Source: Clostridium ljungdahlii (lineage in GTDB: Bacteria > Bacillota > Clostridia > Clostridiales > Clostridiaceae). From it: a DNA stretch of 64,000 bases. Positions 12,142 through 31,482 of the stretch are shown piece after piece. The position numbers and the translations under genes are program-made. The notes below the pieces were generated by a model. That model did no database searches. It was not told the origin of the DNA and saw only the letters and a list, made by a program, of their open reading frames with translations. Location of the stretch: assembly GCF_001636845.1 (NCBI RefSeq), contig NZ_LITT01000002.1, positions 1 to 64,000 on the forward strand, in the 5' to 3' direction. How positions within the stretch are numbered: position 1 is the first letter of the stretch; each line of letters begins with the position of its first letter.

Positions 12142-12170
12142 TTGACTTTTCAAAAAATATGTACTACACT
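12142..12170 (+). promoter_or_regulatory. Promoter of the cobalamin-uptake locus
   Basis: TTGACT (12142-12147), a 17-base spacer, and TACACT (12165-12170). It starts transcription about 25 bases before the cobalamin riboswitch and lies outside the IS, so it does not depend on the element. Confidence 0.55.
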
Positions 12171-12204
12171 TAATATAAAAGTAATGAAAATTTAATATTT
12201 AGTA

Positions 12205-12402
12205 TTAGGTGCTGTCAAATATGACAGTTAAAAGGAAAAGTGCAAGAAACACTGCAGCCCACCGTTACTGTATGGAGGATGAAACCCTAATTATGTCACT
12301 GGATTTATATCTGGGAAGACAGGGAAGTAAGATGACTCTGAGCCAGGAAGCCTGCCTGATATGTTGTTAATTCTTTCGGAGGGGAAGATATGTTGCATGT
12401 AA
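12205..12402 (+). promoter_or_regulatory. Cobalamin riboswitch 1 (controls the surface-protein/ECF locus)
   Basis: Core cobalamin-riboswitch elements are visible in order: AGGTGCTGTC at the 5' side, a CAGCCCACCG-TTACTG loop (L5 region), TGTCACTGG (B12-box-like), GGGAAGACAGG, GAGCCAGGAAGCCTGCCTG, and a distal TTCTTT-CGGAGGG-GAAGA hairpin. The CGGAGGG loop can pair with the CCCACCG of L5, the kissing interaction that defines this class. A terminator follows at 12448. Cobalamin binding is expected to turn the downstream genes off. Confidence 0.9.
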
Positions 12403-12447
12403 AAATGTACGTTTACGACGTAAGTAAACAGTTACATTTGAAATAAG

Positions 12448-12470
12448 AGGACCCTCAGGGGTCCTTTTTA
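12448..12470 (+). terminator. Riboswitch 1 expression-platform terminator
   Basis: AGGACC(C) pairs with GGGTCCT and is followed by TTTTTA. It is placed as the ligand-controlled terminator of riboswitch 1. Confidence 0.8.
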
Positions 12471-12488
12471 TTTATTTCGTTGTATTTT

Positions 12489-12516
12489 CGTCTCCTAAAA
12501 AGGGAGGCGTTTTTTA
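12489..12516 (+). terminator. Second terminator in tandem after riboswitch 1
   Basis: CGTCTCCT pairs with AGGGAGGCG (one or two G-U pairs) and is followed by six T. Two terminators in series before the first gene suggest tight silencing when cobalamin is plentiful. Confidence 0.6.
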
Positions 12517-12608
12517 ATTACATCAAGATACTATAAAAAGAATATTCTAAATTTCAATAATATATAGGCAATTCTAGAAATATTACATTAATTTGAAGGA
12601 GGGATAAT

Positions 12609-14573
12609 ATGCAAAAAGTTATAAGTAAATGTACTACATTTTTATTTATGATAGGTATTGCATTATCTGCTTTTGGAAATCAGGTGAATGCAGATACAAA
12701 TGTAAGCAAAAATAGAATTTATGGAAATGACAGAATTGAAACTTCATTAAAAATAAGCCAAGATGGCTGGAAAGATGGCTCAAGTACTGTAGTTATAGCT
12801 CAGGGTTATGGTTATGCTGATGCCCTTTGTGCAGGATCACTTGCTAAAAAATACAATGCACCTATAATACTTTCCAAGCAAGATGGATTAAGTGATGAGA
12901 CTATAAATGAGTTAAAAAGGCTTAAGGCAAGTAAAGCTTTTGTAATTGGAGGTAAGGCCTCACTATCTGATGGTGTGGAATCTGAGCTGAAGAATATTGG
13001 TATAAATGATGTGGAAAGGCTTGGAGGTGCAACAAGATATGAAACTTCTGTTAAAATAGCTGAAAGTCTAGGAAGTGTAGATAGTATTGTAGTTGCATCT
13101 GGCAGTGGTTATGCAGATAGTCTTTCTATAGCACCTATAGCATCTAAAAAAGGAATGCCAATACTTTTATCAGAAAAGGACAGCCTTCCTGATGTAGACA
13201 CTGAATACATAAAAAAAGTAAATGCAAACAAAAGTTATGTAATAGGTGGAGAAAGTGTTATATCAGATAATATAAAAAATTCTCTTCCAAATGCACAGAG
13301 AATTGGAGGAAGTACTAGATTTGAAACAAACTTAGCTGTACTTGAAAATTTCAAGTCTGATCTTGACTTTAGCAATGTGTATATAGCTGAAGGAGATGGA
13401 CCTAATGGAAATGAATTTGCAGATGCTCTTTCAGGGTCAGCTCTTGCAGCACAGAAATCAGCTCCTTTAGTACTTATGTATAACAGCTTAAACTCAAATG
13501 TGGAGGATTTTATAAAGTCTAATATTTCTAATAAGACAGTATTTACGGCATTAGGAGGAACTAAAGTAGTTCCAGATGATGCTATAGATAATATTATAAC
13601 TGCATATAACCAAGCAAATAGTGGGAAAAACACTAATATCTCAGGGGGTCCTTCAGGAGGATCTAGTGGAGGATATACTCCAGTTCAGCCATCAGGTGAT
13701 TTAAGTTTAAATTCAGCAAATCAAACTTATGATGGAAATACTTCTGGAAATAAGAACGAAATAACAGGAAATGTAAATATATCAGCAGATAAAGTTTCTC
13801 TTCAAAATGTAAAAATTGATGGCACACTTACAATAGATCCAGGTGCAAGTGGAGTTAGCACTATAACGAATGTTACAGCTGGTAATATAGTAGTAAAATC
13901 TGGGGCAGATCACAGTATTTATTTGAATAACGTGAAGTCTGATTCACTCCTGGTTAATAGCAGTAACAGCGTAAAGGTTGAGATAAGCAGTGGAACTCAA
14001 ATAGTAGATACACAAATAGCAAGTAGTTCAACACTAGTGGCTCCAGATGATGCTAAATCAACTTTTGGACAAGTTGTTGTGGATTCAACTTCAAATCCAC
14101 AAATAACACTTACAGGTGGATTTGAAAATGTTAATGTAAAAAATAAAGCTGCCATAAATTTAACAGGAGCCAATGTATCAGCAATAAATGCTTCTGAAAG
14201 CTTTACTTTAAATATAAATGATGACACATCTACTGTAGCTGCACTAAAGGTGCTAGAAGGTTGCGCTGTTGATGGAAACAAAAAAATAACACAAACAACT
14301 GTAAAAAACATCGTAAATGTAAATAAGGATGGAATTAACTTAAATATAATTGAAAATACTTCAGATGATATAGATATAAGTGCAGCTAGTAAAAATGATA
14401 ACGATAAAATTGCCTTAACTTTATATGATAGCCAGGGGAACTTGAGTTACATAAATCAATCTGAAAATGGTAACTTACAGGTTAAAACTGCTCTTAAGTC
14501 CGGAAAATATCATGGCTTTATCAAATCTTCAAGTACTGAGGTAGTTGATATAAATGAATTTGAAATTAAGTAA
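12609..14573 (+). CDS. Cell-wall-anchored CWB2 protein with predicted beta-solenoid domain
   Basis: 654 residues. A signal peptide (basic start, hydrophobic core, cleavage near residue 29) precedes three CWB2 repeats (about 35-330). Each has the RIYGNDRIETS/RLGGATRYETS/RIGGSTRFETN opening and a (V/L)IGG or ALGGT core. Triple CWB2 modules bind wall polymers in clostridial surface proteins. After a Gly/Ser/Pro linker (~340-365) the C-terminal half is a series of short Val/Ile/Asn-rich beta repeats (NVKIDGTLTI, NVTAGNIVVK, NVKSDSLLVN), suggesting a right-handed beta-helix. It has no toroid or DUF4430 domain, unlike its paralogues. It is first after riboswitch 1. A role in corrinoid capture or as scaffold is inferred from position only. 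Confidence 0.82.
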   Translation: MQKVISKCTTFLFMIGIALSAFGNQVNADTNVSKNRIYGNDRIETSLKISQDGWKDGSSTVVIAQGYGYADALCAGSLAKKYNAPIILSKQDGLSDETINELKRLKASKAFVIGGKASLSDGVESELKNIGINDVERLGGATRYETSVKIAESLGSVDSIVVASGSGYADSLSIAPIASKKGMPILLSEKDSLPDVDTEYIKKVNANKSYVIGGESVISDNIKNSLPNAQRIGGSTRFETNLAVLENFKSDLDFSNVYIAEGDGPNGNEFADALSGSALAAQKSAPLVLMYNSLNSNVEDFIKSNISNKTVFTALGGTKVVPDDAIDNIITAYNQANSGKNTNISGGPSGGSSGGYTPVQPSGDLSLNSANQTYDGNTSGNKNEITGNVNISADKVSLQNVKIDGTLTIDPGASGVSTITNVTAGNIVVKSGADHSIYLNNVKSDSLLVNSSNSVKVEISSGTQIVDTQIASSSTLVAPDDAKSTFGQVVVDSTSNPQITLTGGFENVNVKNKAAINLTGANVSAINASESFTLNINDDTSTVAALKVLEGCAVDGNKKITQTTVKNIVNVNKDGINLNIIENTSDDIDISAASKNDNDKIALTLYDSQGNLSYINQSENGNLQVKTALKSGKYHGFIKSSSTEVVDINEFEIK

Positions 14574-14614
14574 TAGGGTTATTACCAATTATGATGTATG
14601 AAAGGAGAGAGTAT

Positions 14615-17600
14615 ATGAAGAATTTTAAAGTTAATCTGATGTCATTTATTATGACATTTGTAATGATGATTGGCTTATTAGGAACTGGTACAGTTCAAGT
14701 ATTTGCAGATGGAACTGGATATTCATCTCAAATAAATAGTCTTATAAATTCAATGAGTCCATCTATTACACAAAACATGGGTGATTGGCAGACTTTGGAT
14801 TTAAATAAGGCAGGAAAAGAAGTACCGGGAAGTTATTTAACAAATCTTGAAAGTAATATAAAAAGTGGTTCAGATTCCTTATCTTTACCTACAGATTATG
14901 AGAGAACTTCTTTGGGAATACTTGCAGCTGGTGGAGATCCAACAAACTTTGCTGGAATGAATTTAATAGAAAAAATATATAACAATGAGGGCATCAAAGA
15001 TCAAGGCATAAATGCCTATGTATTTGCACTTATAGCTCTTGATGCGGGGAAATTTAATATACCTGATGGCTCAAAATGGACTAGGGATAGTTTGATTCAG
15101 GGAATATTAGATAATAGGACTACAGATGGTGGCTGGAGTTATAGTGGTGGTTCAGCAGATCCTGATATGACAGGAATGGCACTTTCAGCTTTAGCTCCAT
15201 ATTATGGCACTAACGCAAATGTAAAATCAGCTGTGGATGGAGCAGTTGAAATACTTGCAAATATTGAGAAGAATGATGGTGGATTTGCATCATGGAGCCC
15301 TAAAGATGGCGGGGGCGACGAAAATGCAAACAGTGTAGCTATGGTAATAATAGGATTATGTGATAGTAACGTAGATCCAACTACAGATAGTAGATTTACG
15401 AAGAATGGCAAAAACCCTTTAGATGCATTATTGAGCTATACAGTAAGTGACAATAGTGGATTTGGATATACAGATAATAAATCAGTTAATGGTATGGCAA
15501 CAGAACAGGGATTTAGAGCACTAGCTGCATACAATCTTTTTAAAGAAAGCAAAGGATCAGTATATAAGAATTTTGCAGCAAATACTTCAGATACTAAGGT
15601 AACTGGAATAAGCCTGGATAAAACAAGTGCAAATCTTACAGAAGGGGATTCATTGCAGCTTACACCAACGATAACACCAAAAGATGCCACTAACACGAAG
15701 GTAGATTGGTCAAGCAGTGATAAAACTATAGCAGCAGTAGATGGAAATGGAAAGGTAACAGCAGTAAAGGCAGGAACAGCAACTATAACAGCAACTACAG
15801 AAGATGGACAGAAAACAGCAGTTTGTGCTATAACAATTATTGCCAAAACCGTACCTGACAAAACTATACACGTATCAATGATTATTGATGGATATAAGGG
15901 AAATATGTTAACTGATGAAAATATAGAAGCTGCAGAAGGACAAACAGTTTACAGTATGTTTAAAAATGAACTTGCAGCCAAAGGAATAACTTATAAAAAT
16001 CCTGATGGTGATTTCTCACCATATATATCTGATATAGCAGGTGAAACGGAAAAAGATAGAGGAGCACAAAGTGGCTGGAAATACAGCGTAAATGGGGTAT
16101 TCCCTAATGTAGGCTGTGGAAGTGTTAACCTTAAAGATGGAGATAAAGTGCACTGGATATATGTAGAAGGTGCCTGGGATGAATTCCAGTTTAGAGATGT
16201 AGATTCAATTAGCTTAGATAAACAAAGTTTGAACTTAAATGTAAATGGTACAGAGAAGCTTACAGCTACAATTGATCCAGATAATGCTACAGATAAAGAT
16301 GTAACCTGGAAAAGCAGTGACCCTACAGTGGCAGCAGTAGATAAAAATGGAACTGTAACAGCAGTAAAAGCAGGGACAGCAACAATAACAGCAGCATCAG
16401 TGGACAATGATAGAACAGATTTCAATCAAAAAAAATATGTGGCTAAAACAGCTCAATGTACAGTTATAGTAAATTCACAACAGCCACAGACAGTAAAGGT
16501 AACAGGAGTAAGTCTTGACAAAACAAGTGCAAACTTGACAACAGGAGATACATTGCAGCTTACACCAACGATAACACCAAAAGATGCCACTAACACGAAG
16601 GTAGATTGGTCAAACAGTGATAAAACTATAGTAGCAGTAGATGAAAATGGAAAAATAACAGCAGTAAAGGCAGGAACAGCAACTATAACAGCAGTATCTG
16701 AAGACAATAAAGATGCAAAAGCACAGTGCACAGTTACAGTATCAGATAAAAAGCAAGCTGTTCAGGTAGATTTAAGTGTTACAGGCTATAAGGGAAGTAT
16801 ATTAGATGCTAAATCTATTGAAGTAGAAGATGGAAAAACAGTAGAACAAGTTGTAAAGCAGGTATTAGATGATAAAAAAATAGAATATACCGACGATAAT
16901 GGATACTTTTCTATGATAGGTAATGAGTCAGAGCGTGATAGAGGAGCGATTAGCGGATGGATGTATGATGTTAATGGCATACAACCAAGTGTAGGAATGA
17001 AAGATTATAAAGTTAAAAAGGGAGATAAAATAGGATTATTTTTCACAAGCGATTTTGGAAAAACTATGTTTAGAGACATAGACAAAATTAGTTTGGACAA
17101 TACAAAAATGGGCTTAAATGTAGGTGATATACAAACTATTCGAGCAAATGTATCTCCTATAACAGCTACAGAAACGGTGAATTGGTCAAGTAGTGACCCA
17201 ACAATAGCGGCGGTAGACAGCAATGGAAAGGTAATGGCAGTAAAGACAGGAACGGCAACTATAACGGCCTCAGGTAAATATAATAAAACTATAACGGCAC
17301 AGTGTGCAGTTACAATAGTTCAGCCATTGGTAATAACTAATTTGACAACAGAAGATTCATTTAAATTAGGTGATGATGCAAAGATATCTGTAAAAACTGA
17401 AAATAATTCAGGTAAAGACCAGGATGCGTCATTAATAGTAGCATTATATGATGAAGGTGGTAAATTTATCAATTATGTATGTGGAAGACAAACAATAAAA
17501 AATGGTGATTCATCCATCTTAACAACTATGATGAAACTTCCAGAAGAAGGAGCATACAAATTGAAAGCATTTATTTGGGACAGTTTAGAAAGTATGAATA

Positions 17601-17641
17601 TTATTTCTGATAGTATAGATATACCCGTCCAATCAAAATAA
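14615..17641 (+). CDS. Secreted transcobalamin-like protein: toroid, two DUF4430 and four Big2 domains
   Basis: About 1008 residues from ATG 14615 (GGAGAG ribosome binding site; an upstream ATG at 14591 has none). Order: signal peptide; alpha/alpha-toroid (~25-330) with paired-helix repeats such as TDYERTSLGILAAGGDP, DGGWSYSGGSADPDMTGMAL and NDGGFASW; Big2 Ig-like domain; DUF4430 domain (~420-525) with QSGWKYSVNGVFPNVGCG; two Big2 domains; a second DUF4430-like domain with ISGWMYDVNGIQPSVG; Big2; C-terminal beta-sandwich. Toroid plus DUF4430 is the domain pair of animal transcobalamin and intrinsic factor. With the cobalamin riboswitch, this suggests an extracellular corrinoid-binding protein. 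No CWB2 or LPXTG anchor is seen, so it may be released or held by partners. Confidence 0.82.
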   Translation: MKNFKVNLMSFIMTFVMMIGLLGTGTVQVFADGTGYSSQINSLINSMSPSITQNMGDWQTLDLNKAGKEVPGSYLTNLESNIKSGSDSLSLPTDYERTSLGILAAGGDPTNFAGMNLIEKIYNNEGIKDQGINAYVFALIALDAGKFNIPDGSKWTRDSLIQGILDNRTTDGGWSYSGGSADPDMTGMALSALAPYYGTNANVKSAVDGAVEILANIEKNDGGFASWSPKDGGGDENANSVAMVIIGLCDSNVDPTTDSRFTKNGKNPLDALLSYTVSDNSGFGYTDNKSVNGMATEQGFRALAAYNLFKESKGSVYKNFAANTSDTKVTGISLDKTSANLTEGDSLQLTPTITPKDATNTKVDWSSSDKTIAAVDGNGKVTAVKAGTATITATTEDGQKTAVCAITIIAKTVPDKTIHVSMIIDGYKGNMLTDENIEAAEGQTVYSMFKNELAAKGITYKNPDGDFSPYISDIAGETEKDRGAQSGWKYSVNGVFPNVGCGSVNLKDGDKVHWIYVEGAWDEFQFRDVDSISLDKQSLNLNVNGTEKLTATIDPDNATDKDVTWKSSDPTVAAVDKNGTVTAVKAGTATITAASVDNDRTDFNQKKYVAKTAQCTVIVNSQQPQTVKVTGVSLDKTSANLTTGDTLQLTPTITPKDATNTKVDWSNSDKTIVAVDENGKITAVKAGTATITAVSEDNKDAKAQCTVTVSDKKQAVQVDLSVTGYKGSILDAKSIEVEDGKTVEQVVKQVLDDKKIEYTDDNGYFSMIGNESERDRGAISGWMYDVNGIQPSVGMKDYKVKKGDKIGLFFTSDFGKTMFRDIDKISLDNTKMGLNVGDIQTIRANVSPITATETVNWSSSDPTIAAVDSNGKVMAVKTGTATITASGKYNKTITAQCAVTIVQPLVITNLTTEDSFKLGDDAKISVKTENNSGKDQDASLIVALYDEGGKFINYVCGRQTIKNGDSSILTTMMKLPEEGAYKLKAFIWDSLESMNIISDSIDIPVQSK
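15651..15813 (+). repeat. Near-identical Big2-encoding repeat, copy 1
   Basis: About 160 bases encoding most of a Big2 domain recur almost unchanged exactly 900 bases downstream. Long identical stretches at both codon-third positions and protein level indicate recent duplication or gene conversion within the gene. Confidence 0.8.
16551..16713 (+). repeat. Near-identical Big2-encoding repeat, copy 2
   Basis: Second copy of the Big2 segment at 15651, differing by only a few bases over the shared stretch. It marks a recombination-prone region that could change domain number. Confidence 0.8.
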
Positions 17642-17661
17642 ATAAATTTAAAATATGTTTT

Positions 17662-17695
17662 AAAGGATGGCTTCTCTTACTCAGCCATTCTTTAA
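17662..17695 (+). terminator. Intra-locus hairpin after the secreted toroid protein
   Basis: AAAGGATGGCT pairs with AGCCATTCTTT (one G-U pair) around a 10-base loop, with only three T after it. A similar hairpin (GAGAATGGCTTA...GTCATTCTC) overlaps the end of the next gene near 20637-20668. Both may attenuate transcription or protect message ends within the long locus. Confidence 0.5.
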
Positions 17696-17740
17696 GCAGT
17701 TTTAAACAATTAAAACTTATAGGTTCTTAGGGGGGATACT

Positions 17741-20638
17741 ATGAAAAAAATTATAACTAAGATTATTATGTTTTTGTTTATAGTAGGCATTGGGATGTCT
17801 GGTTTTAGTGGCAGTGTACATGCAGAAGCAAGTACAAATGAAGTATCTGCGCAGCAAAGTGTAAATATAAATAAAGACAGGATTTATGGAAATGATAGAA
17901 TTGAAACTTCACTGAAAATAAGTCAAAGTGGTTGGAAAAATGGTTCAAGTACTGTAGTTATAGCCCAGGGTTATGGATATGCAGATGCCCTTTGTGCAGG
18001 ACCACTTGCTAAAAAATATAATGCACCTATAATACTTTCAAAGCAAGATGGATTAAGTGATGAGACTGTAAGTGAATTAAAAAGACTTAAGGCAAGTAAA
18101 GCTTTTGTAATTGGAGGTAAAGCTTCATTATCTGATAATGTGGAATCTGAACTAAAAAATATTGGTATAAATGATGTAGAGAGGCTCGAAGGTGCAACAA
18201 GATATGAAACTTCTGTGAAAATAGCTGAAAGTTTAGGAAATAGTGTAAATAGTATTGTAATTGCATCTGGAAACGGCTATGCAGACAGTCTTTCTATAGC
18301 ACCTATAGCTTCAAAAAAAGGAATGCCAATACTTTTATCACAAAAGGATAGTCTTCCTGATGTAGTTAAAAATTATATAAAAAAAGTAAACGTGAACAAA
18401 AGTTATGTAATAGGTGGAACAAATTCTATATCTGATAATATAACAAATTCTCTCTCAAATGTGCAGAGAATTGGAGGAAGTAATAGATTTGAAACAAATT
18501 TAGCTGTACTTCAAAATTTTAAATCTGATTTTGATTTTAGCAATGTGTATATAGCTGAGGGAAATGGAACAAGTGGAAATGAATTTGCAGATGCTCTTTC
18601 AGGTTCAGCTCTTGCAGCAGAAAAATCTGCTCCTGTTGTACTTGTTTATAATACAATATCTACCGACACTGCAAATTTTATAAAGTCTAATATGTCTAAA
18701 GATACTGTTCTTACAGCTTTAGGTGGAACATTAGTGGTACCTAATACAATTTTAAATGGAATTGAAGATTTGTTTAATGGCAAAACTCCTGACAGTGGTA
18801 TAGGAAATCCAACAGCACCAACAACACCAACAAATCCAATAACACCAACAAACCCTACTTCAGATCAATTACATGTGTCGCTTGTAATTGATGGTTATAA
18901 AGGGAATATAATCAATGAAACAAATTTGGAGGCTTCCAAAGGAGAGTCAGTTTATGACTTGCTAAAAAGCACTCTTGATAGTAAGGGAATAAAATTTGTA
19001 AATAAGGGAACTGGTGGTAGTACTACGGGTGCAAGTGTATATATATCAAGTATAGATGGAGAAACGGAATTTGATAGGCCAAGAGGAAATGGACAGACAA
19101 ATCAGAGTGGATGGAAATACAGTGTGGATGGCACTTTCCCAAATCATGGCTGTGGGGTGGAATACATTAACAATGATAATGAGAAAATACACTGGATTTA
19201 TGTTGTTGGAGCTTGGGATGAGACTCAATTTAGAGATGTAGATTCAATTACTCTTAACAAAACTGATTTAACTTTAAATGCAAATCAAACTGAAAGCCTT
19301 ACAGCTACCGTTAGCCCTTCTAATGCTACTGATAAAAATGTAACATGGGAAAGCAGTGATAAAACTGTAGCTACAGTAGACAGCAATGGTAAAGTAACAG
19401 CCATAAATTCAGGTACAGCGACAATAACTGCAAGTTCAATAGATAATACAAAAGGGTTTCGTAATTATACACCACAATCTGATTCTTGCAAGGTTACTGT
19501 TAAATCAAATGGAAATATTCCATCTTCTATTTCTGTAACAGGAATAACTTTAGATAAAACAGGGACTGTGGCAGTAGGAGGTACACTCCAGTTAAAGGCA
19601 TTAGTACAACCAGATAATGCTACTGATAAAAATGTAAATTGGTCAAGCAGTGACAAGACTATAGCAGCAGTAGATGGAAAAGGACTGGTAACAGGAATAA
19701 AAGAAGGAACAGCAACTATAACAGCAGCTACGGAAGATGAAAATAAAACAGCAGCTTGCACTATAACGGTAAAAAACTCCCAGACAAAAGATTATACATC
19801 ATCTATAAATAATCTTATAAATGGGATAAGTTCAATCATTACAAGTGATAATTGTGATGACTGGATTGCCCTTGGATTAAATAAAACAGGCAATCAGGTA
19901 CCGAAAGATTATTTATCAAAATTACAGGACAGAATAACAAGCAATACAAAAGGAGGAGTACTGGATTTAGGACGGCCTACGGAGTATGAAAGAACTACTC
20001 TTGCAGTACTTGCAGCTGGAGGAGACCCTACAAATATATCAGGTCAGAACCTTATAGAAAAAATGTGCAACAGTGATATGGACAGCCAGGGGATAAATGC
20101 CTATGTGTTTGGACTTATAGCCCTTGACTCAAAAAATTTCAAGGTACCGGATAATGCAAAATGGACTAGAGATGCTTTAATTAAAGTCATATTAAATAAT
20201 AAAACCAAAGACGGCGGGTGGAGTTATGCTGGTGATTCAGCAGATCCTGACATGACTGGTATGGCAATTTCTGCACTAGCTCCATATTACAGCACTAATT
20301 CAGATGTAAAATCAGCTGTTGATGTGGCAGTTAATACACTTTCCAAAATACAAAAAGATGACGGTGGATTTGTATCCTGTGGCATTGAAAATAGTGAGAG
20401 TTCAGCTCAAGTTATAATAGGTCTGTGTGCAAATGGTATAGATCCAACTACAGACAGCAGATTTGTAAGAAATGGTAAAAACCCAATGGATTCACTATTG
20501 AGTTTTGCCACAAGTGACAACAAAGGTTTTGGACATACAGATACTTCATTGAATGGTATGTCTACAGAACAGGGATTGGAAGCTGTGGCAGCATATAATC
20601 TTTTTAAGAGTAAAGGAGGATCTCTATATAAATTTTAG
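17741..20638 (+). CDS. Cell-wall-anchored transcobalamin-like protein: CWB2 x3, DUF4430, Big2 x2, toroid
   Basis: 965 residues. Signal peptide (~1-29); three CWB2 repeats (~45-345), very similar to those of the gene at 12609; a Thr/Pro/Asn linker (PTAPTTPTNPITPTNPTS); DUF4430 domain (~385-500) with NQSGWKYSVDGTFPNHGCG and IHWIYVVGAWDETQF; two Big2 domains (~505-675); and a C-terminal alpha/alpha-toroid (~685-965) with RPTEYERTTLAVLAAGGDP and TKDGGWSYAGDSADPDMTG. It carries both transcobalamin-type halves, in reverse order from the animal proteins, on a wall-binding module. A strong ribosome binding site (GGGGGG) precedes the ATG. Corrinoid capture at the wall is the favoured inference; other small ligands cannot be excluded. 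Confidence 0.84.
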   Translation: MKKIITKIIMFLFIVGIGMSGFSGSVHAEASTNEVSAQQSVNINKDRIYGNDRIETSLKISQSGWKNGSSTVVIAQGYGYADALCAGPLAKKYNAPIILSKQDGLSDETVSELKRLKASKAFVIGGKASLSDNVESELKNIGINDVERLEGATRYETSVKIAESLGNSVNSIVIASGNGYADSLSIAPIASKKGMPILLSQKDSLPDVVKNYIKKVNVNKSYVIGGTNSISDNITNSLSNVQRIGGSNRFETNLAVLQNFKSDFDFSNVYIAEGNGTSGNEFADALSGSALAAEKSAPVVLVYNTISTDTANFIKSNMSKDTVLTALGGTLVVPNTILNGIEDLFNGKTPDSGIGNPTAPTTPTNPITPTNPTSDQLHVSLVIDGYKGNIINETNLEASKGESVYDLLKSTLDSKGIKFVNKGTGGSTTGASVYISSIDGETEFDRPRGNGQTNQSGWKYSVDGTFPNHGCGVEYINNDNEKIHWIYVVGAWDETQFRDVDSITLNKTDLTLNANQTESLTATVSPSNATDKNVTWESSDKTVATVDSNGKVTAINSGTATITASSIDNTKGFRNYTPQSDSCKVTVKSNGNIPSSISVTGITLDKTGTVAVGGTLQLKALVQPDNATDKNVNWSSSDKTIAAVDGKGLVTGIKEGTATITAATEDENKTAACTITVKNSQTKDYTSSINNLINGISSIITSDNCDDWIALGLNKTGNQVPKDYLSKLQDRITSNTKGGVLDLGRPTEYERTTLAVLAAGGDPTNISGQNLIEKMCNSDMDSQGINAYVFGLIALDSKNFKVPDNAKWTRDALIKVILNNKTKDGGWSYAGDSADPDMTGMAISALAPYYSTNSDVKSAVDVAVNTLSKIQKDDGGFVSCGIENSESSAQVIIGLCANGIDPTTDSRFVRNGKNPMDSLLSFATSDNKGFGHTDTSLNGMSTEQGLEAVAAYNLFKSKGGSLYKF

Positions 20639-20700
20639 AGAATGGCTTACTTTTATTAAGTCATTCTCCAGTTAGTTTTAAGGAAGTGAGAATTAATATA

Positions 20701-23248: not shown

Positions 23249-23934
23249 AAAAATTAATAATTGCAATTACAGCTGCCATAATTATAGTATTAATGGCCCT
23301 TACAGTAAAGAGTGATTTTCAAACTGGAGTTTCAGTTATGTGTATGGTTGGTGTTTTTGCAATTCTATTCATGAGTTATTTTTATTTTGAAAAAAGTAAT
23401 GCGGGAACAAAAGAAATAGCAATTATAGCTACGTTGAGTGCTTTTGCGACTGTTGGCAGAATAGCTTTTGCACCTATTCCAAATGTAAAACCTGTAACTT
23501 TTTTAGTTGCTTTGACTGGATTTGTGTTTGGACCTTATGAGGGATTTCTAGTTGGAAGTACTACAGCTTTTTTATCCAATATATTCTTTGGACAGGGTCC
23601 TTGGACACCATGGCAGATGTTTTGTTGGGGACTTGTGGGAATTATAGCAGGTTTTTGGGGTAAAAAAGGAAAAAAAGTATCAGCCTTTAATTTTTCAGTA
23701 GTATGTTTCTTATTTGGTTTTATGTTTGATTGGATTATGGATCTTCAATATATAATTGGATTTGTAAAACCTTTAAATTTCTGGACATTTATAGGAGGAT
23801 ATGTATCGGGGCTTACTTTTGATGTTTTACATGGAGGAAGTTCATTTATATTTTCAATTATATTTTATGATAGCTTTTTACCTGTATTCAAGCGGTATAA
23901 GCGAAAACTCATTATAAGTTATATTAGGCAATAA
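23245..23934 (+). CDS. ECF transporter S component, CbrT-like (predicted cobalamin)
   Basis: 229 residues, six predicted membrane helices. Features shared with predicted cobalamin-type S components are the IATLSAFATVGRIAF helix, PNVKPVTFLVALTGFVFGP, and the FFGQGPWTPWQMFCWGLVGI loop. The start overlaps the ATPase stop by 4 bases (ATGA). Cobalamin as substrate is inferred from the sequence type, the upstream cobalamin riboswitch and the transcobalamin-like neighbours. Other group members transport unknown vitamins, so the substrate is probable rather than certain. Confidence 0.78.
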   Translation: MKKLIIAITAAIIIVLMALTVKSDFQTGVSVMCMVGVFAILFMSYFYFEKSNAGTKEIAIIATLSAFATVGRIAFAPIPNVKPVTFLVALTGFVFGPYEGFLVGSTTAFLSNIFFGQGPWTPWQMFCWGLVGIIAGFWGKKGKKVSAFNFSVVCFLFGFMFDWIMDLQYIIGFVKPLNFWTFIGGYVSGLTFDVLHGGSSFIFSIIFYDSFLPVFKRYKRKLIISYIRQ

Positions 23935-23956
23935 ATAAAGGAGGTAATGTGTATTT

Positions 23957-24721
23957 ATGAATATTAAGAAGAACAAAAAGAAGTATGTTATAGCAATTGC
24001 TGCTTTTGTTATATTTGCAATTATGTTTACTTTTGGCTTAAAAGCTGAAAAAATGTATGCTAATACGCTGACAAATAAGCAGATGAGTGCTGAAAATTCT
24101 CAAAGCAAATCCAGCCATAAAAATACTGCAGGTAATGCTGCAGAAAATAAAAATGATTCTACTTCAAAGCCTTCTGAAAATGTTAGTAAATCTTCTGGTT
24201 CTGGTGGATCTTCTTCTGCAAGTAGTAAGTCTTCTTTAGATTATCCATCAAATACTGAATCTAAAAATGGATCAAAATCAAGTAATCCTTCTACTGTTAC
24301 CTCAAAAGGAAGTGTAAAGGTTACTTCTACAGATCCAGAGAGTAAGTGTACTTTTCAGGTTATTGATACGGTCCACGGCAATAAAATGGTTGTTTCAAAA
24401 GATGTGGACAAAAGCATGGAGGGTGAAACAGTAGGCTATATAACGGAAAGAATTTTGGATGATGCTAAGATAAATTATAGATGCACAGGTTCTGTTTCTA
24501 CACTTTATTTTGCAGCTATAGATGGACTTGAAGAGAAAAAAGCTGGAAAACTTTCAGGATGGTGTTATTATATCAGAAAAAATGGAGACAACGTATTTCA
24601 CAAACCTAATATAGGCAGTGGACAGTGGACATGGCACAGTGGTGATGTAATAGTTTGGAGGTACCTTGCTGATGGAATTCATGATGGTTACGAAGGTGAC
24701 TGGGGGAAGAGCAGTTTTTAA
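23957..24721 (+). CDS. Membrane-anchored DUF4430 protein (transcobalamin C-terminal-like half)
   Basis: 254 residues. One N-terminal membrane helix (about 9-27) with no lipobox, then a Ser/Lys/Asn-rich low-complexity stretch (~35-115) long enough to cross part of the wall, then a single DUF4430 domain (~120-250) with YITERILDDAKINY, LSGWCYYIRKNG and GSGQWTWHSGDVIVWRYL. DUF4430 is the family of the transcobalamin C-terminal domain. The Trp-rich loop near the end resembles a ligand-lid region, though binding residues cannot be verified. It directly follows the CbrT-like S gene, so it would sit at the membrane beside the importer. Confidence 0.78.
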   Translation: MNIKKNKKKYVIAIAAFVIFAIMFTFGLKAEKMYANTLTNKQMSAENSQSKSSHKNTAGNAAENKNDSTSKPSENVSKSSGSGGSSSASSKSSLDYPSNTESKNGSKSSNPSTVTSKGSVKVTSTDPESKCTFQVIDTVHGNKMVVSKDVDKSMEGETVGYITERILDDAKINYRCTGSVSTLYFAAIDGLEEKKAGKLSGWCYYIRKNGDNVFHKPNIGSGQWTWHSGDVIVWRYLADGIHDGYEGDWGKSSF

Positions 24722-24753
24722 AATAAAATAAAAGAGAAGGGAATGAAAATAAT

Positions 24754-26643
24754 ATGAAAAAGAATATGAATAAGTTTATTGTATTTTTATGTACACTAGG
24801 TATTACAATATCTGGGCTTGAAGCAAATGTAAATGCTGATGCAGAAAGTAAAAATTCTGCTGATAATACTATAACTAGAGATAGAATTTATGGAAGCGAC
24901 AGAATTGGAACTTCACTTAAAATAAGTCAAAATGGGTGGAAAGATGGGTCTAGTACTGTAGTTATAGCTCAGGGATATGGTTATGCAGATGCTCTTTGTG
25001 CAGCTCCTCTTGCAAAAAAGTTCAATGCACCTATAATTCTTTCAAGACAGGGTGCATTAAACGATAATACTATAAGTGAAATTAAAAGACTTAAAGCAAG
25101 TAAGGTATTTTTAATTGGAGGAACAGCTTCATTATCTGACAATATAGTAACTCAACTAAAAGGTCTTGGAATAAGTGATATACAAAGACTTGGAGGTACA
25201 AATAGATATGAAACTTCAGTGAAAGTAGCCCAGAATATTGGCAATGCAGATAGTGCCGTAGTTGCATCAGGAAATGGTTATGCAGATAGCCTTTCTATAG
25301 CACCAATAGCTGCAAGTAAAGGCATGCCAATACTTTTATCAGGAAGTGGAAACTTGCCAGATGTAGTAAGTAACTATATAAAAGGCAGTAATGTAAAAAA
25401 GACTTATGTAGTAGGGGGAACTGCTTCTATAGGAGACAATGTAAAAAATGTACTTCCAAATGCTGAGAGACTAGGAGGTTCTACTAGATTTGAAACAAAT
25501 CTTTCTATACTTCAAAATTTTAAATCAGATCTTAAATTTGACAATGTATATATAGCAGAAGGAGATGGGCCAAGTGGAAATGAATTTGCAGATGCACTTT
25601 CAGGTTCAGCCCTTGCAGCAGAAAAATCTGCTCCTATGGTACTGGTTTATAAAACTATTTCTACTAATACTTCAAATTTTATAAAATCTAATATGTCAGA
25701 TAATACTGTACTTACGGCTTTGGGCAGCAATTTAGTTGTACCTGATTCAATTTTAGATGAAATTGAAGGTATATCTAGTGGAGTTTCTTCTTCTGTAGAC
25801 AATTCATTAAATTCAGCTGTAAGCAAAATACTAAGTAATGCAGAAAAAGAAGGAATAGATGATTGGCAGGCATTGGCAATATCGAGATATGGGGCAGCAG
25901 TTCCTGCAAGCTATCTAAGTAATCTTCAAAATAGCATAAATTCTGTAAATGGAGAATTAACACAACCTACTGATTATGAGAGAACTACTTTGGCACTTAT
26001 GGCCATAGGACAGGATCCTACAAATTTTCAGGCTAGTGATAAAAGTTATAATTTCATAGAAAAGATATATAATAACAAAGATATATCAGAACAGGGAATA
26101 AATGCAGAAGTATTTGCACTTATAGCTCTGGATTCTGGAAATTTTAACGTACCACAGGATTCCGTATGGACAAGGGATAAGTTAATAAGCGAAGTCTTAA
26201 AGAATAGAACAAATGATAAAGGTTGGGATTATGCTGGTGAGAAAGCTGATCCAGATATGACTGGTATGGCACTTACGGCTTTGGCACCTTATAAAGATAA
26301 GGAAGATGTGAAGGCTGCTGTTAGTACAGCTTTTGATAAGCTTTCTTCTATGCAAGATGCAGATGGTGGTTATTCTTCCTGGGGAGTATCTAATAGCGAG
26401 AGTATATCACAGGTCATAATAGCTCTCTGTGCCAACGGAATAGATCCTACAAGTGAAGCTTTTACTAAAAATGGGAAAACCACAATAGATGCCCTTTTAA
26501 GCTATGAAGTAGCAGGTGGAGGATTTTGTCATGTAAAAGGAACAGGATACAATGCCATGGCAACGGAACAGGCAACCCAAGCACTTGAGGCATATAAAAT
26601 GTTTAAGGGAAATGCAGGGAGCGGCATATATAAATTTAAATAG
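24754..26643 (+). CDS. Cell-wall-anchored toroid protein: CWB2 x3 plus alpha/alpha-toroid
   Basis: 629 residues. Signal peptide (~1-29), three CWB2 repeats (~45-335), then an alpha/alpha-toroid (~345-629) with QPTDYERTTLALMAIGQDP, ADPDMTGMALTALAPY, DADGGYSSWG and SISQVIIALCANG. These are the same paired-helix repeats as in the toroids at 14615 and 17741. It has no DUF4430 domain of its own but is flanked on both sides by genes for membrane-anchored DUF4430 proteins. In transcobalamin-type proteins the two domains close over the ligand from either side, so a split two-chain binder is plausible. That assembly is inference. Confidence 0.82.
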   Translation: MKKNMNKFIVFLCTLGITISGLEANVNADAESKNSADNTITRDRIYGSDRIGTSLKISQNGWKDGSSTVVIAQGYGYADALCAAPLAKKFNAPIILSRQGALNDNTISEIKRLKASKVFLIGGTASLSDNIVTQLKGLGISDIQRLGGTNRYETSVKVAQNIGNADSAVVASGNGYADSLSIAPIAASKGMPILLSGSGNLPDVVSNYIKGSNVKKTYVVGGTASIGDNVKNVLPNAERLGGSTRFETNLSILQNFKSDLKFDNVYIAEGDGPSGNEFADALSGSALAAEKSAPMVLVYKTISTNTSNFIKSNMSDNTVLTALGSNLVVPDSILDEIEGISSGVSSSVDNSLNSAVSKILSNAEKEGIDDWQALAISRYGAAVPASYLSNLQNSINSVNGELTQPTDYERTTLALMAIGQDPTNFQASDKSYNFIEKIYNNKDISEQGINAEVFALIALDSGNFNVPQDSVWTRDKLISEVLKNRTNDKGWDYAGEKADPDMTGMALTALAPYKDKEDVKAAVSTAFDKLSSMQDADGGYSSWGVSNSESISQVIIALCANGIDPTSEAFTKNGKTTIDALLSYEVAGGGFCHVKGTGYNAMATEQATQALEAYKMFKGNAGSGIYKFK

Positions 26644-26681
26644 ATTATTAATGTATTAAAAACATTGTGGGGTGCAAGACG

Positions 26682-27425
26682 ATGAATAAAAAGAAAAAAT
26701 ATATTATAGCTGTAGTAGCATTTGTGGTCTGCGCCGTCCTATTTACATTTGCTATAAAGGCTCAAAGAATGTATAGCGATAGCCTTACAAATAAGCAGAC
26801 AAGCTCTCAAGATGCAAATAGTAAATCAAAGGGATTTAGTCAGTCACAGGGTGCTAAAGATAAAGAAAATGGAAAACCAGGAGATGCATCTAAAAACTTC
26901 AGTGGATCACCTTCTTCTGAAACTCAAAAAAATGATAAATCCTCATCTATAAGTTCTACGGGAAGTGGCTCAGGGAGTAATTCCAGCCAGAAAGAAAATA
27001 ATCCTACAGCTTCCCAATCTTCAGGTGAAAATATAGTGGTTAAGTCGGGTGATCCAGAAGAAAATAATTCTTTTCAGTTTATTGATACAGTTAATGGTAA
27101 TAGTGTTTTTTTAAGAAAAGATGTAAACAACATGGACGGTGAAACGGTAGGTTACATAACGGAAAGAATTTTGGATGATGCTAAAATAAATTACAAATGT
27201 ACGGGATCTACTTCTACAGTATATTTTGCAGCTATAAAAGGACTTGAAGAAAAAAAGGCAGGAAGGCTTTCTGGATGGTGTTATTATGTTAGAAAAAAGG
27301 GTGAAAGTAAGTTCGTAAAACCAAATGTGGGAAGTGGACAGTGGATATATCATACTGGGGATATAGTTGTATGGAAATACTTAGCTGATGGCATACACGA
27401 CGGTTATTCAGATGATTGGAAATAA
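26682..27425 (+). CDS. Membrane-anchored DUF4430 protein, paralogue of the gene at 23957
   Basis: About 247 residues from ATG 26682; an upstream in-frame GTG lies inside the GTGGGGTG ribosome binding site. It has the same layout as the gene at 23957: an N-terminal membrane helix, a Ser/Asn/Gly-rich linker, and a DUF4430 domain with the shared segments GETVGYITERILDDAKINY, LSGWCYYVRKKG and SGQWIYHTGD. Linkers differ while the folded domains are close, indicating duplication followed by linker drift. It follows the toroid gene at 24754 by 38 bases. Confidence 0.78.
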   Translation: MNKKKKYIIAVVAFVVCAVLFTFAIKAQRMYSDSLTNKQTSSQDANSKSKGFSQSQGAKDKENGKPGDASKNFSGSPSSETQKNDKSSSISSTGSGSGSNSSQKENNPTASQSSGENIVVKSGDPEENNSFQFIDTVNGNSVFLRKDVNNMDGETVGYITERILDDAKINYKCTGSTSTVYFAAIKGLEEKKAGRLSGWCYYVRKKGESKFVKPNVGSGQWIYHTGDIVVWKYLADGIHDGYSDDWK

Positions 27426-27447
27426 TATGATTCATTGGAGGATGCAG

Positions 27448-28203
27448 ATGAAAAAATCTATTTTATTTTGTTTAGCTATTGGAATATTTTTTAGTGGATG
27501 CAGTTCTACAAATAATATAAATAATACTAAATCTACAAATTTAGATATATCGAATTCTGATACTACCTTTATAATGGGTGGAAAGATTGCAACAAATGAC
27601 AATGTAGATATAACTTCTAATATTTCCGGAAGAGTTTCTGAAATATCAACGGAATTAGGTAAAAAGGTAAATTCAGGAGATATTGTTATCAAATTAGATA
27701 CATCAGATTTACAGAGCAAAGTTGATCAGGCTAAGTCAGCAGTAAATGCAGCACAGACAAACCTATCTAGTGCAACTACTTCGACTTCATCTAATATTGG
27801 TGAATATCAATCTGAGCTGGCTCGGGTTCAAGCTCAATTAAAAACTTCAGAGGCATCTTTAAAAGATGCCTCTATTACAGCACCTATTTCAGGTATAGTA
27901 AGCTCACAAAACATTAATGTAGGAGATATGGTTATTCCAGGTAAACCACTTGTTTCAATAGTTAATGCAGATAATCTCTATGTAAATGTATATGCACCAA
28001 TAAGCGTTTTAAATCAAATTCAAGTTGGGCAGAGTGTAGTGATAAAAGTACCAGATATCTCAGATAATGAGTTTTCAGGAAAGATATCTGTCATAAATTC
28101 AAAAGTGAATTCACAGAGCCAGGATGTTCTTGTGAAGGTAACTTTAAATAGTAAAAATGCACTTTTAAAACCAGGTATGTTTGCAGAGGTTGGATTGAAA
28201 TAA
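27448..28203 (+). CDS. HlyD/RND-type adaptor lipoprotein
   Basis: 251 residues from ATG 27448 (GGAGG six bases upstream). The N-terminal lipobox FFSGC predicts lipidation and anchoring outside the membrane. The rest is a membrane-fusion-protein fold: a biotinyl-lipoyl half (SGRVSEISTELGKKVNSGDIVIKLD), a short coiled hairpin (~85-135) with a Ser/Thr-rich turn, the second half (ITAPISGIVSSQNINVGDMV), then a beta-barrel domain. Such adaptors normally work with MacB-type or RND pumps, but no permease or ATPase accompanies it here. The next gene is a second adaptor. Its role within a cobalamin-regulated locus is unknown. Confidence 0.82.
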   Translation: MKKSILFCLAIGIFFSGCSSTNNINNTKSTNLDISNSDTTFIMGGKIATNDNVDITSNISGRVSEISTELGKKVNSGDIVIKLDTSDLQSKVDQAKSAVNAAQTNLSSATTSTSSNIGEYQSELARVQAQLKTSEASLKDASITAPISGIVSSQNINVGDMVIPGKPLVSIVNADNLYVNVYAPISVLNQIQVGQSVVIKVPDISDNEFSGKISVINSKVNSQSQDVLVKVTLNSKNALLKPGMFAEVGLK

Positions 28204-28221
28204 TGAAAAAGGTGGGTTAAT

Positions 28222-28929
28222 ATGAAACTTGGTATAGTTATTAATACAGTTAAAAATCGCAAAAAATTAATTATAGGAATATTAGCAGCAGTTCTGATAA
28301 TGTTTATTGGTTGGGTTTCCTATTATGTATATGAACACGTGTACTATGTAGCTACTGATGATGCAAAAGTTACGGCAGATGTGATTAAAGTAGGTTCACA
28401 AATTCAAGGAAAAGTACTACAATTTAATGTAAACGAAGGAGATCTAGTTAGTAAAGATGAAATATTGGCACGTCAGGATATGGGTAATCTCCCGGATTCT
28501 AGCATAGATCAATCTTTAATAAAATCACCTATTGATGGCATTGTTGTAAAAAAAGAAGCAGATGCAGGGGAAGTTTTATCTCCAGGAAAAACTGCAGCAC
28601 TTTTAGTGGATTCTGAAAACTTTTATGTTACTGCAAAGATAGATGAAACAAAAATAAGAAGATTAAAGATTGGACAACCTGTTCAAATAACTATAGATGA
28701 GTATGGTTCACAAAAATTTCAAGGAAAAATAAAATCTATAGGTGAAATGACAGAAGATGCGTTAAATCCCACAGCATATTCAACTGATAGAAAGCATAAT
28801 AGAAAAGTTGAAAAAGTACCTGTAAAAATTGTATTTGACAACTCTAAAAAATTAAAAAATCAGCTCACTATGGGTACCAATGCCTCTGTAAAAATTTGTG
28901 TAGTAAACGAAAATACTAAAAGTAAATAG
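28222..28929 (+). CDS. HlyD-family (EmrA-like) membrane-anchored adaptor
   Basis: 235 residues. One N-terminal membrane helix (~13-35), then the EmrA/HlyD start VATDDAKVTADVIKVGSQIQGKV, a very short or absent coiled hairpin (the chain goes directly to SPIDGIVVKKEADAGEVL), and a beta-barrel region. The missing hairpin makes it unlikely to bridge long distances as classic EmrA does. It lies 18 bases after the lipoprotein adaptor and before the TIM-barrel gene, with no efflux permease nearby. The pair may have been repurposed as extracellular scaffold; this is inference. Confidence 0.78.
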   Translation: MKLGIVINTVKNRKKLIIGILAAVLIMFIGWVSYYVYEHVYYVATDDAKVTADVIKVGSQIQGKVLQFNVNEGDLVSKDEILARQDMGNLPDSSIDQSLIKSPIDGIVVKKEADAGEVLSPGKTAALLVDSENFYVTAKIDETKIRRLKIGQPVQITIDEYGSQKFQGKIKSIGEMTEDALNPTAYSTDRKHNRKVEKVPVKIVFDNSKKLKNQLTMGTNASVKICVVNENTKSK

Positions 28930-28942
28930 GAAGTGTGGAAAA

Positions 28943-29911
28943 TTGTTGAAGTTAATGAATTTGTCTACATATAATTATGATGTTGAAAGATTTGATTGTA
29001 ATAAAAATAATATCATAAACTTTTTAAAAAAACATAAAATGAATGGTATTGAACTTTTGCATCCTATAGGGTTAGATGAAAATATTATTCCATGTAACCT
29101 TGTTAAAGGTGTCCATTTAAAGTATTATCCTACATGGCTGGACTTTTGGAATAATAATACACAGGAACTTTTAAAACAATTCAGAAGTTTAGACGTTATT
29201 GAAAAATATTATGGTAGTACTAACAGAGAAATTATGATAGAGCACTACAAAAAAGAGATTAAAATGGCTGATAAAATTGGTGCAGAATATGCTGTTCTTC
29301 ATGTAGCTCATGTGCAAGAAAAACATGTTTTCAATTATGGTTTTACATATACTGATGAAGAAATTATAGATGCTGCTAGCGATCTAATAAATGAAGTTTT
29401 TAAAGGAATGGATACAAACATAAAATTATTATTTGAAAATGAGTGGTGGCCTGGATTTACCATGTTAAGTTATGAAAATGCATATAGGCTATTAAATAAA
29501 GTTAATTATTCAAATAAAGGATTTGTATTGGATACATCACATTTAATGAATACAAATTTGCATCTTAAAAGTGAAAAACAGGGAATTGAATATATAATAA
29601 ATACTGTAAAAAATTTAGGAGAATTAAAAAAATTAATAAAAGGTATACATCTTAATTGTTCTTTATCAGGTGAATACGTAATGAAAAAAATAAATAGCAC
29701 AAGAGGAAAAGAGTTTACTCTACCTCCAATGAGTGAAAAAATATTTATGCATGTTTTTAATATAGACAGCCATAAGCCTTTTACAGACACTTGTGTAAAA
29801 AAACTGCTGGATTTTGTAAAACCGGAGTATCTTGTCTACGAACTTGTTGGAAACTCTATTGGAGAGTTGGAACAATATATCGATACTCAGGATGCAGCTT
29901 GTTTACTATAA
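28943..29911 (+). CDS. AP-endonuclease/xylose-isomerase-type TIM-barrel protein; candidate CbiR-like cobamide remodelling enzyme
   Basis: About 322 residues from a TTG at 28943 (AGGAAG nine bases upstream; the first ATG at 28955 is farther than usual). TIM-barrel strands carry probable metal ligands: MNGIELLHP, AEYAVLHVAHVQEKH, KLLFENEWWPG, NKGFVLDTSHLMN and IKGIHLNCSLSGEY. The Glu/His/Asp set (IELLH, FENE, DTSH, IHLN) fits the AP-endonuclease-2 superfamily. A known member, CbiR, removes the lower ligand of cobamides for remodelling. Placement as the last gene after corrinoid capture and import genes and before a second cobalamin riboswitch supports a similar role. Superfamily is confident; function is inference. 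Confidence 0.65.
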   Translation: MLKLMNLSTYNYDVERFDCNKNNIINFLKKHKMNGIELLHPIGLDENIIPCNLVKGVHLKYYPTWLDFWNNNTQELLKQFRSLDVIEKYYGSTNREIMIEHYKKEIKMADKIGAEYAVLHVAHVQEKHVFNYGFTYTDEEIIDAASDLINEVFKGMDTNIKLLFENEWWPGFTMLSYENAYRLLNKVNYSNKGFVLDTSHLMNTNLHLKSEKQGIEYIINTVKNLGELKKLIKGIHLNCSLSGEYVMKKINSTRGKEFTLPPMSEKIFMHVFNIDSHKPFTDTCVKKLLDFVKPEYLVYELVGNSIGELEQYIDTQDAACLL

Positions 29912-31009: not shown

Positions 31010-31011
31010 TG

Positions 31012-31460: not shown

Positions 31461-31482
31461 GTAAACATAATCAAATAGTAAA

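Follow-up and report, generated by a model that had tools for sequence, protein, structure and literature searches.

A putative riboswitch-controlled operon for surface capture and import of corrinoids in Clostridium ljungdahlii

The window analyzed here is the first 64 kb of contig NZ_LITT01000002.1 (contig C3) in the 4.36-Mb genome of Clostridium ljungdahlii, and it contains, behind a cobalamin riboswitch, 12 genes that all lie on the same strand (12609-29911) with intergenic gaps of −38 to +99 nucleotides (nt). Judging from sequence, we consider it highly probable that these genes constitute a riboswitch-controlled operon for the capture of corrinoid at the cell surface and its import by an energy-coupling factor (ECF) transporter. 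The run encodes four secreted or wall proteins (P1, P2, P3 and P8), an ECF importer, two membrane-anchored DUF4430 proteins (D1 and D2), two HlyD-type adaptors (M1 and M2) and a TIM-barrel protein (Table 1). An earlier note, made from the letters of the window, had counted eleven genes and proposed capture and import from them. The function of the system as a whole is upheld, with a cobalamin riboswitch, a CbrT-type substrate-binding (S) protein and DUF4430 accompanying the toroid domain in most of 76 related loci, while binding of corrinoid by these proteins, and its hand-off to the importer, are steps that we infer.

The importer, the DUF4430 proteins and their recurrence

The operon's aptamer is one of 12 cobalamin riboswitches in the host genome, and is followed by two hairpins in a region that holds 4 terminator-like sites on both strands together, against a shuffle mean of 0.1. 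The cobalamin riboswitch with tandem terminators described in the earlier note is thus confirmed, and it would act as an off-switch. The T-A-S order of the importer genes was also recovered, with an EcfT of the CbiQ family, an EcfA with two ATP-binding cassette (ABC) domains and a CbrT-like S protein. A profile of 23 relatives of the S protein aligns with chain A of 6fnp (ECF-CbrT) over residues 6-175 of 182 (E 7.1e-27); among S proteins with a solved structure, the next match after CbrT is 4hzu, at E 2.6e-4. In 16 loci (for example L085, 12647, + strand) the EcfA and EcfS domains lie in one open frame of about 890-960 residues and are apparently fused.

As the earlier note had it, DUF4430 occurs in two secreted and two membrane proteins, with two copies in P2, one in P3 and one each in D1 and D2. 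The copies of P2 and P3 lie well above the Pfam cut-off and that of D1 just above it; D2 falls just below, with 21.7 bits for a cut-off of 23.8 (23.9 bits with its neighbors). All 5 Pfam matches to DUF4430 in the host genome at E ≤ 0.001 are found inside this locus, and our own iterated profile adds one match on contig C37 that Pfam does not back. A DUF4430 profile of 53 rows, composed of P2, P3 and relatives without D1 or D2, was searched against 177,635 distinct PDB sequences. The best kinds of match were transcobalamin-1 (8.6e-6), transcobalamin-2 (1.5e-5), RUMGNA_00854 (1.4e-4), which is labeled in the PDB as putative metal binding, and intrinsic factor (2.9e-4); beyond these four kinds, no match in this search fell below E 0.3. 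The tryptophan that is invariant across the 53 rows corresponds to a tryptophan in both printed transcobalamin alignments.

Small DUF4430 proteins resembling D1 and D2 were collected as open reading frames (ORFs) of length 180-420 with one DUF4430 that starts after residue 60 and no toroid, CWB2 or Big_2. By our own anchor and lipobox patterns, 21 of these 65 ORFs, two of which are the window's own, have a lipobox, 42 a transmembrane or signal segment and 2 neither. Their linkers have a median length of 148 residues and a median S/T/K/E/P/N/Q/D/G/A share of 81%. The marker directly before EcfT is a DUF4430 ORF in 50 of 69 cases, and the one directly after EcfS in 14 of 68. The locus of Clostridium ragsdalei (genome G008) contains a second CbrT-type S gene (L147, 3476-4207, − strand) between P8 and D2, which is missing from the window and from the aligned region of genome G006; by this comparison, D2 resembles a partner whose S protein is missing here.

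The 76 distinct named loci represent the best 80 of 174 confirmed matches to two conserved peptide patterns and are the nearer part of the family. They stem from several Bacillota families, and domains were counted in them with profiles seeded by the window proteins and iterated on the loci, not with Pfam. Riboswitches were sought with a covariance model (R1) derived from 11 of the host genome's 12 riboswitches; the twelfth (L017, 53.5 bits) was left out, and R1 matches at E 0.1-1 are generally at chance level. Twenty regions of 20 kb served as controls, placed at round coordinates of our choosing in ten genomes that belong to the order and are not those of the loci; E-values in the controls refer to less sequence and so correspond to a laxer bit threshold.

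The earlier note would have counted its proposal as refuted if most homologues went with riboswitches or substrates of another kind; the survey of co-occurrence gave the opposite outcome. At E ≤ 0.01, R1 matches the toroid strand in 49 of the 76 loci, the opposite strand in 1 and none of the 20 control regions, and a DUF4430, toroid or CWB2 ORF begins no more than 700 nt 3′ of 54 of the 62 R1 matches. Twenty loci have no toroid-strand match even at E ≤ 1, and in 11 of these the sequence breaks off at the operon head or close to it. DUF4430 is present in all 76 loci and in 66 of them on an ORF without toroid, a count that includes some wall proteins and cut ORFs. EcfT was detected in 60 loci, EcfS in 61, and both together with DUF4430 in 58; every EcfT (69), EcfS (68) and DUF4430 (139) ORF sits on the toroid strand, and each of the three is found in 0 of the 20 controls. 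Because DUF4430 occurs in all of the loci, those whose toroid ORFs all lack it have another ORF that supplies it (26 of 26).

Rfam searches on smaller sets gave RF00174 in 5 of seven loci, with none at the gathering score in the other 2 (one of which has a sub-threshold 27 bits), and in five of a further seven, with two lacking it. Among 20 further regions, taken from relatives and from host contig C37, R1 matches at E ≤ 0.01 in 15. In six distant single-toroid loci among these 20 regions, which we picked by hand (L158-L163), the order riboswitch-T-A-S-[DUF4430-toroid]-DUF4430 was found in all six, and across the order the toroid profile matches 86 of 225 genomes. Short cobalamin riboswitches with a conserved core are seen in L085 (8855-8990), L139 (8656-8788) and other Oscillospiraceae loci; that of L085 is without most of the peripheral extension, and some of the short forms score below the Rfam gathering score and others above it.

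Table 1 Features of the operon and of the element that follows it
Feature	Position	Strand	Evidence
Cobalamin riboswitch aptamer	12190-12373	+	RF00174, 91.8 bits, E 1.8e-21 (gathering score 31.5)
Tandem terminator hairpins, likely expression platform	12445-12468 and 12489-12509	+	
P1, secreted wall protein, CWB2 x3	12609-14573	+	PF04122, E 1.8e-60, three stretches
P2, secreted, toroid - Big_2 - DUF4430 - Big_2 x2 - DUF4430 - Big_2	14591-17641	+	Pfam and own profiles
P3, wall protein, CWB2 x3 - DUF4430 - Big_2 x2 - toroid	17741-20638	+	Pfam and own profiles
EcfT-like transmembrane subunit	20686-21639	+	CbiQ, PF02361, E 2.7e-8
EcfA, two ABC ATPase domains in a single chain	21605-23248	+	ABC_tran, two stretches; TIGR04520, 372.7 bits (cut-off 315)
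EcfS, CbrT-type substrate-binding membrane protein	23245-23934	+	Profile against PDB
D1, membrane-anchored DUF4430 with low-complexity tether of ~127 residues	23957-24721	+	Pfam, 24.3 bits
P8, wall protein, CWB2 x3 - toroid, without DUF4430	24754-26643	+	Pfam and own profiles
D2, membrane-anchored DUF4430 paralogue with tether of ~124 residues	26667-27425	+	Pfam, 21.7 bits (cut-off 23.8)
M1, HlyD-type adaptor with lipobox-like start (our reading)	27388-28203	+	HlyD_D23, E 1.6e-29
M2, HlyD-type adaptor	28222-28929	+	HlyD_D23, E 6.4e-17
TIM-barrel protein	28943-29911	+	AP_endonuc_2 (Pfam)
Second cobalamin riboswitch, upstream of cbiM and a CbiN-like gene (30335-31371)	30009-30182	+	110.4 bits

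Toroid domains and surface anchors

The earlier note described four secreted or CWB2-anchored proteins, three of them with toroids, and this holds. Pfam finds three stretches of CW_binding_2 repeats each in P1, P3 and P8; P2 is secreted and, unlike these three, has no CWB2 by Pfam. P1 is otherwise without a Pfam family at E 1e-3 over its remaining ~300 residues. Toroids are present in P2, P3 and P8, those of P3 and P8 being 64% and 51% identical to that of P2. Pfam at E 1e-3 named no toroid family in any of the three, and the assignment of this domain rests on its relation to the SQHop_cyclase and Prenyltrans families. Toroid profiles of 3, 50 and 74 rows were compared with PDB sequences, and in each case squalene-hopene cyclases were the best matches (1.6e-20 with 74 rows). 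The wider profiles also match complement C3d/C5 or alpha-2-macroglobulin and, with 74 rows, prenyltransferase beta subunits, while SQHop_cyclase_C matches 45 of 50 toroids at E ≤ 1.

A toroid followed by DUF4430 is the domain order of transcobalamin according to passages of PMC1796856, and the earlier note had taken the whole architecture to be that of the animal carriers. Half of this comparison is sustained: the lid (DUF4430) is related by profile to transcobalamin-1, transcobalamin-2 and intrinsic factor, and for the cup (toroid) a specific kinship to the transcobalamin toroid was not found in our sequence comparisons. In P2, toroid and DUF4430 are separated by 116 residues with a Big_2 in between; compact pairs in transcobalamin order, 26-30 residues apart, are observed in several Paenibacillus.

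Anchors on the toroid ORFs were surveyed with our own patterns and small profiles in 77 loci, the 76 and the window. At least one recognized anchor was found in 56 of the 77, as SLH in 24, dockerin in 16, a C-terminal membrane segment in 11, CWB2 in 4 and LPXTG in 3. When eight relatives were searched with Pfam, seven proved to have an anchor to wall or scaffold; one of the seven (L130) is without a toroid. On a tree of the 77 toroids, the anchor labels need 16 changes where the minimum possible is 5, with "no anchor recognized" (22 of 77 rows) counted as a label. The toroid/DUF4430 protein of Ruminococcus bromii (L086, 9116-11020) ends in a dockerin (Dockerin_1, E 7.9e-11), and it was with a profile grown from this domain that the dockerins of the 16 loci were found. 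This suggests dockerin-bearing B12 catchers mounted on cohesin scaffolds. NCBIfam matches below cut-off (SlpA for CWB2, an ocin family for the immunoglobulin-like repeats, and a virulence-protein subfamily for the low-complexity part of D1) were not used.

Proposed mechanism and alternatives

In the mechanism that we propose, low cellular cobalamin would cause the riboswitch to let transcription through the two terminators, and the toroid/DUF4430 proteins P2, P3 and P8 at the wall would bind corrinoid outside the cell. The corrinoid would probably be held between the toroid cup and the DUF4430 lid, by analogy with transcobalamin. D1 and D2, each with a transmembrane helix and a flexible tether of ~125 residues, could extend into the wall, where they would receive the corrinoid or assume its lid role, and then bring it to the CbrT-type S protein to dock there for passage through EcfT/EcfA. 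For this hand-off from wall to membrane we would put the chances slightly below even. A more detailed version is offered tentatively, as possible and still doubtful: a split transcobalamin would serve as a relay across the Gram-positive wall, in which a wall-fixed cup is served by a separate tethered lid (~120-180 residues) that carries the corrinoid to the S protein, each S protein has a dedicated lid, and the cup's anchor depends on lineage (CWB2, SLH, LPXTG, or dockerin on a cohesin scaffold). The relay of wall-held cup, tethered lid and S protein is suggested by the varied anchors, the tethers, the importer-adjacent DUF4430 ORFs and the separability of cup and lid.

A number of observations weigh against corrinoid capture and import as the function of the operon. 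The closest solved relatives of the toroid are squalene cyclases, followed by complement/alpha-2-macroglobulin and prenyltransferases, and transcobalamin is absent among the listed PDB matches of the 3-, 50- and 74-row toroid profiles (60 of 79 matches listed with 74 rows). When the domain searches advised in the earlier note were run, CWB2 and DUF4430 were found, and Cobalamin_bind matched 2 of 50 toroids, at a best E of 0.035. By Pfam, EcfS falls into the riboflavin S family PF07155, at 43.9 bits for a cut-off of 26.7. In nine of the 76 loci the operon head is visible and no toroid-strand R1 match is seen even at E ≤ 1; Rfam, run on 2 of the nine, matches both at the right place, one at 36.5 bits, above the gathering score, and one at 28.9, below it. 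Five of the 20 further regions (L151, L153, L154, L156 and L157) likewise have no R1 match at E ≤ 0.01. EcfT went undetected in 16 of the 76 loci and EcfS in 15, some of these loci being cut, and EcfA is a poor discriminator that is present in 66 of 76 loci but also in 6 of 20 controls. M1, M2 and the TIM-barrel protein have no place in the proposed mechanism.

The need for a capture system is also not obvious, because the host has both a corrinoid synthesis operon and another likely importer. The synthesis operon, behind its own riboswitch, encodes CbiD, CbiG, CbiK, CobT, CbiB, tetrapyrrole methylases and others (ten proteins tested), with CobS encoded elsewhere in the genome, and a BtuFCD-like importer lies behind another riboswitch. 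Within the order, CbiD is found in 53 of 86 genomes with toroids and 98 of 139 without (Fisher p 0.19), so the idea that the system marks B12 auxotrophs is unsupported there. Since the host has the synthesis operon and CbiD is frequent in toroid genomes, the system is not simply a replacement for synthesis, contrary to what was generalized in 2007 (PMC1796856). Possible roles beside it are the recycling of lost corrinoid, selectivity for certain cobamides, or economy while corrinoid is available.

An alternative is that CbrT imports corrinoid by itself, and that the toroid/DUF4430 proteins do not pass it on but retain it at the surface by storage, hoarding or sequestration, as a reservoir or to deny it to competitors. 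For this idea speak the synthesis operon and the second likely importer; the operon also has three toroid proteins per importer, and CbrT of Lactobacillus delbrueckii binds cobalamin with nanomolar affinity without partners of this kind, according to passages of PMC5997447. We nevertheless regard storage or denial as unlikely, since the position of DUF4430 ORFs directly before EcfT or directly after EcfS, and of the second S gene directly before D2 in C. ragsdalei, indicates that DUF4430 proteins and the importer work as a pair. That the toroids instead act as squalene-cyclase/prenyltransferase-type enzymes or as scaffolds, with corrinoid handled by the DUF4430 parts and the ECF importer only, is very improbable. 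The profile matches to squalene-hopene cyclases and to SQHop_cyclase_C speak for an enzyme; against it, the toroid proteins of the window are secreted, two of the three with CWB2, their relatives are anchored, and DUF4430 is near in every one of the 76 loci, most of which are riboswitch-linked. DxDD is the catalytic motif of the cyclase, and in one weak alignment (1.8 bits) a conserved DPDM of the toroids lies over the DVDD of cyclase 7xq4.

A riboswitch-linked ligand other than B12 itself, such as cobalt or a corrinoid that is incomplete or special (cobinamide, another cobamide), appears to us rather unlikely. In its favor, EcfT belongs to the CbiQ family, a separate riboswitch heads the cbiM operon that follows, relatives have the TIM-barrel gene beside CbiQ, CbiJ or CobN genes, and ECF-CbrT also takes cobinamide, as passages of PMC5997447 report. 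Free cobalt is a poor fit with the CbrT match of the S protein and the match of DUF4430 to cobalamin carriers; cobinamide or a special cobamide would refine corrinoid capture and import as we propose it.

Known systems and neighboring elements

The core idea is not new as a concept, because it was published in 2007: Burroughs, Balaji, Iyer and Aravind predicted that Gram-positive toroid-SLBB surface proteins encoded with CbiO/CbiQ genes scavenge B12, and proposed that animals acquired the toroid-SLBB architecture from such bacteria (passages of PMC1796856). The SLBB of the transcobalamin clade corresponds, by our equation, to DUF4430. The operons of that paper resemble the present one, in the passages that describe them, in their secreted toroid-SLBB fusions in either order, immunoglobulin-fold companions, several paralogues per operon and CbiO/CbiQ-like genes. 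The operon here is headed by a riboswitch, a word with 0 occurrences in the 2007 text, and the relevant passages mention neither a CbrT-type S protein nor CWB2, a dockerin, a tether or a split of toroid and lid. According to those passages, owners of such operons are usually without key enzymes of B12 synthesis, which the owner here has; their lack is given there as a usual correlate rather than a strict requirement. What is added to the 2007 proposal is the riboswitch link, the CbrT identity, the differing anchors, the tether, the split between toroid and DUF4430, and coexistence with a corrinoid synthesis operon.

Animal transcobalamin-1, transcobalamin-2 and intrinsic factor likewise combine a toroid with a C-terminal DUF4430. 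The bacterial set differs from them in several ways: there are several DUF4430 and immunoglobulin domains, proteins are anchored to the wall, toroid and DUF4430 often reside in different proteins, and the toroid is nearer in sequence to squalene cyclases. ECF-CbrT of L. delbrueckii is a characterized importer whose cobalamin binding was tested in E. coli membrane vesicles (passages of PMC5997447); the S protein of the operon is its relative, and EcfT and two ATPase domains are present in both. Unlike that system as described in those passages, T, A and S are encoded here in one operon with the surface proteins, and the two ATPase domains form one chain.

In Lactobacillus rhamnosus, a DUF4430 protein is encoded near rtpR, a ribonucleotide reductase gene, and a separate proteome entry reads "additional lipoprotein component of putative cobalamin ECF transporter" (excerpts of PMC9963975). 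These entries agree with the present operon in linking a lipoprotein with a cobalamin ECF transporter and differ in being annotations only, with no toroid or wall proteins in the excerpts. The cobamide binders BtuG and BtuH of Bacteroidetes also capture B12 at the surface, beside riboswitches and ahead of an importer, as passages of PMC6977713 and PMC8941943 describe; they serve cells with an outer membrane and are of other protein classes as described there, BtuG being a beta-propeller. The parallel with BtuB drawn in the earlier note, along with BtuG and BtuF, is a loose one, because in Gram-positives there is no outer membrane that would have to be passed. Among the papers listed by keyword searches of an open-access collection, in which subscription papers are mostly absent, we recognized no experimental study of bacterial toroid or tethered DUF4430 proteins.

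The locus and its relatives form a defined gene set that recurs, is linked to riboswitches and has parts amenable to testing; it is found in acetogens and Ruminococcus among others, and the CWB2-anchored, riboswitch-controlled, split and tethered form makes surface B12 capture in Gram-positives directly testable. Acetogens depend on corrinoid proteins for the Wood-Ljungdahl pathway. The set bears on the proposed bacterial origin of animal B12 carriers, and on the question of why a large scavenging system at the surface is retained by a bacterium that has genes for corrinoid synthesis.

The two adaptors and the TIM-barrel protein that the earlier note placed at the end of the run are there. The TIM-barrel family is present in 20 of 147 genomes, and a cobalamin riboswitch lies within the 4-kb locus in 5 of 12 TIM-barrel loci, in three of which it is the cbiM riboswitch. 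In four loci (L195, L197, L202 and L203) the gene adjoins CbiQ, CbiJ, CobN/Mg-chelatase, ChlI-like or radical SAM genes, so the protein perhaps has a corrinoid or cobalt function. In the operon that follows, cbiM is well supported (CbiM, E 6.5e-57), and the CbiN-like gene matches CbiN at E 0.17. A third strong cobalamin riboswitch (31470-31646, + strand, 108.1 bits) lies directly after the CbiN-like gene. No + strand ORF of at least 110 residues begins closely 3′ of it, and the next gene (31877-33052) is on the opposite strand; the riboswitch is possibly the leftover head of lost cobalt-transport genes. That next gene is AICARFT/IMPCHase-like (− strand) and has a ZMP/ZTP riboswitch upstream (33105-33185, − strand). 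A flavin mononucleotide (FMN) riboswitch is found at 47162-47277.

At the other end, a DDE transposase gene (PF01609, 10702-11955, + strand) is situated immediately 5′ of the operon's riboswitch, preceded by AgrB-like and histidine kinase genes. The promoter-like hexamer pair TTGACT..TACACT (9/12) at 12142, the start given in the earlier note, is weak as evidence, with 6 such sites for 3.7 in shuffles. Within the operon, a terminator-like hairpin with a weak T tail lies between genes (20638-20668, + strand) and would split the run if it is functional, such sites numbering 11 on both strands for 6.2 expected. The locus DNA is ~95-96% identical to that of G008 (C. ragsdalei) and G006, and the best named match of the window's toroids is C. 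ragsdalei P11, at 97% identity.

Two other sites in the host genome are related to the operon. The riboswitch of L017 (1501-1680; contig C12:249080), closely similar to that of the operon, lies ~300 nt upstream of a gene for a chemoreceptor-type protein (1990-3147; 4HB_MCP_1, E 4.6e-34), perhaps an instance of B12-controlled chemotaxis; a literature search on this point listed a single paper, which concerns a different riboswitch. A second cluster, on contig C37 (L144), comprises within 9.9 kb three cobalamin riboswitches and genes for a toroid/Big_2 protein and for a small secreted protein in which DUF4430 is matched by our own profile only.

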